From positions 1-54,346 of the forward strand of contig VHCW01000023.1 of the NCBI GenBank assembly GCA_016871575.1: DNA of 54,346 nucleotides, written 5' to 3'. The first letter of the stretch is position 1. The number at the start of each line of letters is the position of its first letter. The notes beneath the pieces are model-generated. The model ran no database searches. It was not told the DNA's origin and saw only the letters and a program-made list of their open reading frames with translations. Origin of the DNA: Verrucomicrobiota bacterium (lineage in GTDB: Bacteria > Verrucomicrobiota > Verrucomicrobiia > Palsa-1439). This document shows positions 24,722-42,864 of this stretch, piece by piece. The position numbers were made by a program, and so were the translations under genes.

Positions 24722-25057
24722 TTATTGTCCGTCCGTCAACACGACTTCAATGTGGCTCATCCGTTTCAGGATCGGCCCGGCGCTGCCGCGCGCCTTGGGC
24801 TGCCACCGTTTCATCTTCGGCGCCTCGTTTGCCACGGCGCTCTTGACCACCAGCGCGTCCGCCGCGAGCTTCGCATTGTTCGTCGCATTGGCAATCGCCG
24901 ACTTCAACGTCTTCTCGATCAGGCGCGCCGACTTCTTCGGCATGGCCCGCAACAATTCCAGCGCAGCCGCGGCGCTCTTGCCTCGAATCAGGCGCGCCAC
25001 GGGACCCACCTTCGCGGGACTCATCCGCTGATATTTAGTTATCGCTTTGACTTCCAT
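24722..25057 (-). CDS. rplV: 50S ribosomal protein L22
   Basis: A 111-residue protein lining the exit tunnel. It has [35 protein letters not shown] and the hairpin segment [28 protein letters not shown]. The usual partner rpsS is not adjacent: the coiled-coil gene at 25067-25831 lies in between, with 9 nt to this start. Confidence 0.97.
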
Positions 25058-25066
25058 AAATTGTCT

Positions 25067-25831
25067 TCACTTCGGCGTTACACTTACGCTCTTCGTCACG
25101 CGCACGGCGTCTCCCGCCTGCAACACGACCCCTTTCTCCGTGTTCTCGATCAACGCCCCGCTCACTCGCGGGCGCACCTCGATCACACGCAACCCGGCGA
25201 CCACCCGGTCGCCGCGCAACACCAGAAACGGCATCCCGACGCGCACCCCCTGCTCCGCGCCGACATCCAGCACCACGGCGCGCAATTTCGGATTCACATC
25301 CAAAATCCTCGCCGCCTCCAGCCGCCCCGCCGCTGCCGCCGTCACTTCCTCTGACGGCCGTTGCAGCGTGGCCAGCATTTTTTCAGTCGCCTCGACTTCG
25401 ACGCTCACGTTCGCGTTCGACTGCACCGCGCCCAGCAGCCGCTGCAACTGTTCGGCCAATCGCCGGCGCTCCGCCTGCGCCTGCGCCAGGTGACGCACCG
25501 TGTCAGCCAGTTGCCGTTGCGCTGCTGTCGCCTCGCTGTCGTTCGGGTTCGCCCCGAGCGTCTGCGCGCGCATCTGCGCTTCGGCCCATTTGCGCTGGAA
25601 CATCTCGCTTTCGGTCCGTGCCACCGCCAGGCTTTCCTGCAGGTTGCGAATCACGACCTCTCGCAAGTCCAACTGCGACTTCAGGTCGGCGTTTTCCGCG
25701 CGCACCTTGTCAAGAACCAGTTTCAGCTCTTCGAGCTTCCACGGCTCTGCTCCTGCCGTTCCTATCAATCCAAAGAACAAAACTCCGACACCCAACAACC
25801 GGCCCGCCCGCGCTCGTGCGTTTTGGCGCAC
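25067..25831 (-). CDS. Exported coiled-coil protein inserted between rpsS and rplV
   Basis: A 254-residue protein of unknown function. It has a signal peptide (about residues 1-27; RLLGVGVLFFGLIGTAGAE) and a long heptad-like helical region (about 33-150) rich in Leu, Glu, Gln and Arg, probably a coiled coil. A compact beta-type C-terminal domain (about 165-254) has the segments ARILDVNPKLRAVVLDVG, GVRVGMPFLVLRGDRVV and ALIENTEKGVVLQAGD. That domain loosely resembles the barrel-like modules of MreC-type scaffolds. The chosen start is the GTG at 25831, 8 nt after the rpsS stop, with AAGGA 4 nt upstream. A longer frame to 25900 would overlap rpsS. It ends 9 nt before rplV, so it must be transcribed with the S10 operon. 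No ribosomal protein family matches, and export makes a ribosomal role unlikely. Confidence 0.85.
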   Translation of the reverse strand: MRQNARARAGRLLGVGVLFFGLIGTAGAEPWKLEELKLVLDKVRAENADLKSQLDLREVVIRNLQESLAVARTESEMFQRKWAEAQMRAQTLGANPNDSEATAAQRQLADTVRHLAQAQAERRRLAEQLQRLLGAVQSNANVSVEVEATEKMLATLQRPSEEVTAAAAGRLEAARILDVNPKLRAVVLDVGAEQGVRVGMPFLVLRGDRVVAGLRVIEVRPRVSGALIENTEKGVVLQAGDAVRVTKSVSVTPK

Positions 25832-25838
25832 GGCGTCC

Positions 25839-26117
25839 TTACTTCGCGACGACCTTCTCAGTCGCCGCGCCGTGCGCGCGAAACACGCGCGTCGGCGCAA
25901 ACTCGCCCAGCCGGTGTCCGACCATGTTCTCGGTCACGAACACCGGCACGTGCGTCTTGCCGTTGTGCACCATGAACGTGTGCCCGACAAACTCGGGCAC
26001 GATCATGGAGCGCCGCGACCACGTCTTGATCGGCTTCTTGTCCGACACGGGCATGGCCTGCACCTTTTTCATCAGGTGCTCATCAACAAAAAATCCTTTT
26101 TTCAGCGAGCGTCCCAT
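25839..26117 (-). CDS. rpsS: 30S ribosomal protein S19
   Basis: A 92-residue head protein. It begins [19 protein letters not shown] and contains [22 protein letters not shown] and [19 protein letters not shown]. It starts immediately after the rplB stop (TAA-ATG). Normally rplV follows; here an exported coiled-coil gene intervenes. Confidence 0.97.
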
Positions 26118-42294: not shown

Positions 42295-42864
42295 TTACGC
42301 GCGTTCCACTTGCCAGTATTCCAATTCAACCGGCGTTGAACGCCCAAAAATAGATACGGAAATCTTCAGCTTGCCGCGGGCCGCGTCCACTTCCTCAATA
42401 ACTCCCGTGAAGTTCTGGAACGGCCCGTCCGTGACCTTCACCGTCTCGCCCGTCTCGAAGGCGACCTTCGGCGCGATTTTGTCCTGACGCTCCTCGATTT
42501 GCGCGAGAATGCTGTTGACCTCGTCCGCCTTGAGCGGCACCGGACGCTCGCCGCCAATAAACCCGATAATCCCCGGCGTGTCGTGAATGAAGTACCAAGA
42601 GCGCTCGACAAGCTGGTTTTTCTCGTCCAGCAGCCGCATGTTGAGCAAGATGTAGCCGGGATAGAATTTTCGGGTGCTGGTGGTTTTCTTTCCTCGCTTG
42701 ACCTCCGCCACACGCTCGGTGGGAATGAGCACTTGCTTGATGTAATCGCCCATTTCCTCGACCTTGATTCGCCGCTCAATGGAGTTCTTGACCTTCTGCT
42801 CCTGACCGGACAACGTGTGCAGCACGAACCACTGGAACTCAGATTTGACTTGGGTTTCACTCAT
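42295..42864 (-). CDS. nusG: Transcription termination/antitermination protein NusG
   Basis: A 189-residue RNA-polymerase-binding factor that also couples to ribosomal S10. The NGN domain starts FQWFVLHTLSGQEQKVKNSIERR and contains KFYPGYILLNMRLLDE. The C-terminal KOW domain has FETGETVKVTDGPFQNFTGVIEEVD. It lies between secE and rplK as usual. Confidence 0.97.
   Translation of the reverse strand: MSETQVKSEFQWFVLHTLSGQEQKVKNSIERRIKVEEMGDYIKQVLIPTERVAEVKRGKKTTSTRKFYPGYILLNMRLLDEKNQLVERSWYFIHDTPGIIGFIGGERPVPLKADEVNSILAQIEERQDKIAPKVAFETGETVKVTDGPFQNFTGVIEEVDAARGKLKISVSIFGRSTPVELEYWQVERA

Follow-up and report, generated by a model that had tools for sequence, protein, structure and literature searches.

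A gene for a predicted exported protein between rpsS and rplV in the S10 operon of Verrucomicrobiota, with an embedded 8-nt nucleotide-level element

Between the ribosomal protein genes rpsS and rplV of a Verrucomicrobiota bacterium lies a conserved gene, here called gene X, which we regard with moderate confidence as belonging ancestrally to the S10 operon of the phylum, encoding an exported envelope factor tied to ribosome synthesis and carrying a separate nucleotide-level signal, GTTCTTTG. The S10 operon ranks with the best conserved gene strings of bacteria; in Escherichia coli, rpsS and rplV are direct neighbours within it, spaced by 14 nt. In the window (the whole stretch of DNA analysed, 54,346 nt), the gap between the two genes is 781 nt and is filled by gene X. 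The features concerned are as follows.

25067..25831 (-): gene X, an open reading frame of 254 aa with a GTG start and a TGA stop, for a predicted exported helical/coiled-coil protein with a C-terminal FlgT_C-like barrel
25839..26117 (-): rpsS (S19), upstream neighbour of gene X, from its open reading frame and a PF00203 match
24722..25057 (-): rplV (L22), downstream neighbour of gene X, from its open reading frame and tblastn to relatives
25748..25831 (-): predicted signal peptide, residues 1-28, with an Arg-rich n-region, the h-region LLGVGVLFFGLIG and AGA before E29
25771..25780 (-): TTGTTCTTTG, with its core GTTCTTTG at 25771-25778, an element conserved at the nucleotide level, inside gene X near its start
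25361..25744 (-): helical/coiled-coil region, approximately residues 30-157, from AlphaFold helices; missing in 8 minimal homologs
25091..25315 (-): C-terminal six-stranded beta barrel, FlgT_C-like, approximately residues 173-247, from AlphaFold and a fold match

A sequence-only reading of this DNA had described a 254-residue frame with a GTG start and its own AAGGA filling the rpsS-rplV gap, and both points were borne out: 7 nt separate the rpsS stop from the GTG, 9 nt separate the end of gene X from the rplV ATG, and the AAGGA lies 4 nt ahead of the GTG, overlapping the rpsS stop. The surrounding string, with gene names assigned from the encoded proteins, runs fusA-rpsJ-rplC-rplD-rplW-rplB-rpsS-X-rplV-rpsC-rplP-rpmC-rpsQ-rplN-rplX-rplE-rpsN-rpsH-rplF-rplR-rpsE-rplO; it is complete, on a single strand, and all its gaps are 30 nt or less. 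By position, gene X is therefore a member of the S10 operon (same strand, operon-like spacing), and likewise in relatives. Given the spacing of 7 and 9 nt, and as terminator-like signals at the junction did not exceed chance, gene X is likely to be co-expressed with the ribosomal protein genes. Its codon adaptation, measured against the ribosomal protein genes of the window, was 0.68, compared with 0.58-0.80 for those genes themselves and 0.70 for a putative secY. A weak terminator-like hairpin of 5 pairs is present at 25802-25785 (-), inside gene X just upstream of GTTCTTTG; the number of such sites in the region is within chance.

Of 57 relatives, 45 yielded homologs of the gene X protein, and the 30 best-matching loci all lie between rpsS and rplV in identical orientation, which excludes a chance open reading frame. 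Across 18 gene pairs, dN/dS (NG86) was 0.05-0.39 in 17, including 0.26 for the nearest pair (75% identity), and 0.55 in the remaining, distant pair. Gene X is therefore a real gene under purifying selection. Presence at the junction in close relatives and purifying selection were both checks that the earlier reading had named for its proposal, and it passed them.

We surveyed the region upstream of rplV in 105 genomes from 46 families of Verrucomicrobiota with the A1 profile. A match in the open reading frame directly upstream of rplV was detected in 74 genomes (66 full-length and 8 minimal forms) from 27 families. In the other 31 genomes gene X was absent, the distance from rpsS to rplV being between -1 and 148 nt or the arrangement being a different one (families f31 and f36), indicating that it is dispensable in many lineages. 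The insertion is not universal: genomes whose junction is empty or X-less occur in 20 of the 46 families. On a ribosomal protein tree built from L2, S19, L22 and S3, the presence of gene X required 10 parsimony changes, compared with a mean of 27 and a minimum of 21 for shuffled labels, and a single origin at the midpoint root requires 11 losses. This clustering is consistent with a gene that is old in the phylum and has been lost many times. A genome scan with the nearer alignment A2 returned 13 loci, 12 titled Verrucomicrobia or Verrucomicrobiia and one titled 'uncultured bacterium'. Our literature search found no paper on an rpsS-rplV insertion in Verrucomicrobiota or on GTTCTTTG, which is weak evidence of absence.

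Some X-less junctions have features of their own. In family f12 (L039, L040, L130, L131), the rpsS-rplV gaps are 85-122 nt and share an order of AAAGGGCAGGG or AAAGGGTAGGG, a hairpin-like stretch, CTGTCGCC or CTATCGCC, and rplV; the shared stretch looks like a conserved RNA leader. The gaps in f28 (L101-L103), of 86-94 nt, contain sigma-70-like promoters before rplV as judged by eye (e.g., TTGCAG-N17-TATACT), which suggests a separate transcription unit beginning with rplV in this family.

The gene order in several families bears on why gene X has stayed where it is. In f25, f30, f35 and f41 the S10 operon is split, with unrelated genes after rpsS and rplV elsewhere, and gene X lies directly before rplV; in f47, gene X and rplV share one contig and rpsS is on another. 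The families concerned are taken, by inference, to be Lentisphaeria and relatives. Matches to gene X in the split-operon families were weaker (E 9e-5 to 4e-23), and its orthology is supported by its position together with the Arg220 signature, which was kept in 10 of their 11 gene X genomes. As a separate observation, the split falls exactly between rpsS and the X/rplV part in f25, f30, f31, f35, f36 and f41 (loci L092-L097, L104-L110, L115-L118, L121-L122 and L132-L145).

Gene X might instead be a passenger, an old insertion with an ordinary envelope role whose product has no functional link to ribosome synthesis and whose place persists only through the cost of rearrangement inside the S10 operon. 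We consider this rather unlikely, although many independent losses have restored an rpsS-rplV adjacency of 1-15 nt, and work on the evolution of this operon cluster in Gammaproteobacteria and Bacilli describes strong constraint on its gene order, with change usually by insertion and with insertions typically breaking the linkage between operons (PMC8046335). For a passenger, separation from rplV should be no harder than separation from rpsS; the five families in which gene X remained beside rplV after parting from rpsS therefore count against it, and provide the strongest argument for a functional tie between gene X and the operon.

Within gene X, no 8-mer located 20-240 nt after rpsS was shared more widely than GTTCTTTG, which occurs exactly in 9 of 18 families. 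In 300 dinucleotide shuffles no 8-mer exceeded 6 families and GTTCTTTG averaged 0.11 families, a test that is not fully independent because the element had been spotted by eye in the same data. Sharing of 8-mers in other parts of gene X reached 5 families at most, except in the region running into the rplV start, and information content around GTTCTTTG falls to background immediately outside the eight bases. The same DNA, TTGTTCTTT, encodes Leu-Phe-Phe in f1, the family of the window, and Cys-Ser-Leu in other families: the frame is TTG TTC TTT in f1 and xxx TCT TTG in f2, f4, f5 (TTA there), f9, f13, f16, f18, f20, f37 and f39. At the element, all 23 non-f1 genes use TCT for Ser; among the 480 Ser codons of those genes TCT accounts for 41, motif copies included. 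GTTCTTTG, read in two different frames, is thus conserved as nucleotides and not as protein, and the two-frame reading together with the TCT codon choice is stronger evidence for this than the shuffle test. The element was missing in f3, f21, f23, f29, f34 and the minimal forms.

In f5, f13 and f16, a hairpin with differing stems immediately precedes GTTCTTTG, and f10 has a weaker one; the hairpin was absent or weak elsewhere, and we rejected it as a universal part of the element. We also rejected a prfB-like frameshift (CTTTGA) at the motif, as the gene X frame is open throughout and the signal peptide is in frame in both frame groups. A genome-wide regulon of the motif was unsupported (12 exact 10-mers in the genome versus 23 for a reversed control), and no conserved pairing partner for GTTCTTTG was found near rplV. 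The TTCTTT inside GTTCTTTG fits TTNTTT, the NusG pause motif, on the non-template strand. The NusG of the window (42295-42864 (-)) reads HDTPG at the recognition site, keeping the Thr but with Asp for the Asn of the recognition pair (Asn81-Thr82 in Bacillus subtilis). A second NusG-like gene is present at G000:C97:7141-7422. The TTNTTT motif has been described for B. subtilis, and pro-pausing NusG is widespread in bacteria (PMC12288461).

These properties raise the alternative that the junction is mainly a regulatory boundary, at which GTTCTTTG is a NusG-type pause or another RNA or DNA site controlling the rplV half, with the gene X coding sequence as its carrier. Its occurrence in two frames and in far more families than chance, the consistent use of a serine codon that is rare in these genes, the upstream hairpins of three families and the broad distribution of pro-pausing NusG all speak for such a site. 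However, five families and the minimal forms lack the element, the hairpin is not general, and NusG in the window has Asp-Thr in place of Asn-Thr. Moreover, a mere carrier accords poorly with purifying selection on the gene X protein itself, and we judge this alternative unlikely.

The earlier reading had also proposed a signal peptide, a long coiled coil and a beta-type C-terminal domain; our models gave long helices followed by a six-stranded barrel. An N-terminal hydrophobic segment was present in 72 of 74 homologs and was followed by a small-x-small site in 71; by this sequence heuristic alone the protein carries a cleavable N-terminal signal peptide, and is probably Sec-exported and periplasmic. 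AlphaFold, run on the window protein plus 13 relatives, predicted helices over mature residues 2-129 (2-64, 71-109 and 114-129), from which, with the sequence, the coiled coil was read, followed by a beta domain (full-length model, mean pLDDT 75.5, pTM 0.35). The barrel modelled alone reached a pLDDT of 87 (91-97 in its core) and a pTM of 0.77. The minimal forms, of 111-129 aa (in f8, f12, f24, f46 and genome G002 of f1), consist of the signal peptide and the C-terminal domain, with no coil; because these homologs keep exactly signal peptide and barrel, we infer that the barrel is the functional core of the protein. Within the operon-linked group, Gly191 was invariant, Gly199 was found in 72 of 74 proteins and Arg220 in 71.

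Other members of the superfamily occur in the same phylum, and they too combine a coil with a related C-terminal barrel (E ~1e-12 to 1e-22 with the A1 profile). Unlike gene X, these paralogs have an N-terminal membrane (TM) anchor, lie outside ribosomal operons, and lack Gly199 and mostly Arg220: of 8 paralogs, 7 have Asn at position 199 and 5 have Glu at position 220. This sets the operon-linked proteins apart as a group of their own, and location in the operon does not extend to the superfamily at large. The loci of the TM-anchored paralogs are L146 (4878-5654 and 5702-6517), L147 (5101-5847), L148 (4999-5748), L149 (4632-5540), L150 (5112-5852), L151 (5240-6574) and L153 (5320-6114); a tandem pair of them adjoins a dnaX-like gene.

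Searched by sequence against solved structures, the whole protein matched coiled coils only, and the barrel had no convincing match. By structure, the best matches of the barrel were FlgT in the LPHT ring (8z5n; Z 11.2, 79 residues, rmsd 2.3) and FlgT 3w1e (Z 10.7; rmsd 2.3-2.4 across the FlgT comparisons), followed by the N-terminal barrels of F1/V1-ATPases (Z ~10); matches within one Z unit count as tied, so these assign a fold and not a function. Of 25 members, 5 matched Pfam FlgT_C (PF16538), with a best E of 3.5e-4, while the window protein gave no match; on the modelled structure the C-terminal domain would have the FlgT_C fold. FlgT, of the Vibrio flagellar H ring, is also an exported periplasmic protein, as gene X protein is predicted to be, with a C-terminal barrel of the same fold. 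Its N-terminal and middle domains had no Pfam match in the window protein or in the summary of the 25 members; in their place gene X has a long, predicted helical region, and its site in the S10 operon is unlinked to flagellar genes here. The alpha and beta subunits of F1/V1-ATPases share the six-stranded barrel, whereas gene X protein lacks a nucleotide-binding domain and is predicted to be exported, and identity of ~12-15% denotes likeness of fold only. Since the same barrel occurs in these ATPases, likeness to FlgT does not show function.

The suggestion of the sequence-only reading that the C-terminal domain recalls MreC barrels was not upheld by these matches. MreC (PF04085) is, like gene X protein, an envelope protein with a coiled coil followed by a beta barrel, and NCBIfam MreC gave a below-threshold coil match to residues 107-207, but a diverged MreC or elongasome scaffold is very improbable: that match scored 18 bits where the cut-off is 343, the same genome encodes an MreC elsewhere (162 bits, G000:C43), MreC occurs in 48 of 57 relatives irrespective of gene X, sampled f3 genomes have gene X and no MreC, and gene X protein has a single barrel and an apparently cleaved signal peptide in place of a TM anchor. 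Among the Pfam hits of gene X and the 25 members, no MreC match exceeded the gathering score; MreC was not among the structural matches of the barrel listed; a distant link is conceivable. Separately, we rejected a role for gene X as a replacement of the Skp/OmpH chaperone, as OmpH was found in all 57 genomes, with or without gene X.

Under the favoured reading of gene X as an ancestral member of the Verrucomicrobiota S10 operon, its product would be exported through Sec to the periplasm, where the helices may form an oligomeric coiled-coil stalk presenting the small barrel as the working part. The barrel may act as in FlgT, as a protein-protein module of a periplasmic assembly, using the almost invariant Arg220. 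The site between rpsS and rplV would couple synthesis of this envelope factor to that of ribosomes, so that its supply would follow growth rate, as for secY in the neighbouring spc operon, and it is reasonable to suppose that envelope growth would thereby be coordinated with growth rate. Both secY and gene X (the latter by its probable co-transcription) are envelope-function genes transcribed with ribosomal protein genes; secY, however, is near-universal in the spc operon and its product is membrane-integral, whereas the gene X protein is predicted to be exported and is known here only from Verrucomicrobiota. GTTCTTTG would be a signal of its own at the nucleotide level, in the simplest view a transcription pause or another RNA- or DNA-binding site, acting where the operon passes from its rpsS half to its rplV half. 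It is conceivable, if improbable, that the junction is an ancient two-layer control point, at which an envelope protein is tied to ribosomes and GTTCTTTG pauses or otherwise regulates transcription of the rplV half, coupling expression and product.

A TraDIS essentiality data set exists for Verrucomicrobium spinosum (PMC12283558). The retention of gene X in the S10 operon, and beside rplV even after the operon has split, offers a concrete case in which a link between envelope supply and ribosome supply can be tested, and its product represents a protein family that is uncharacterised but has a defined core domain and signature residues. Evidence of the kind given by the two reading frames of GTTCTTTG is rare for nucleotide signals within coding regions, and the element could mark an internal control point of ribosomal protein synthesis in a poorly studied phylum.
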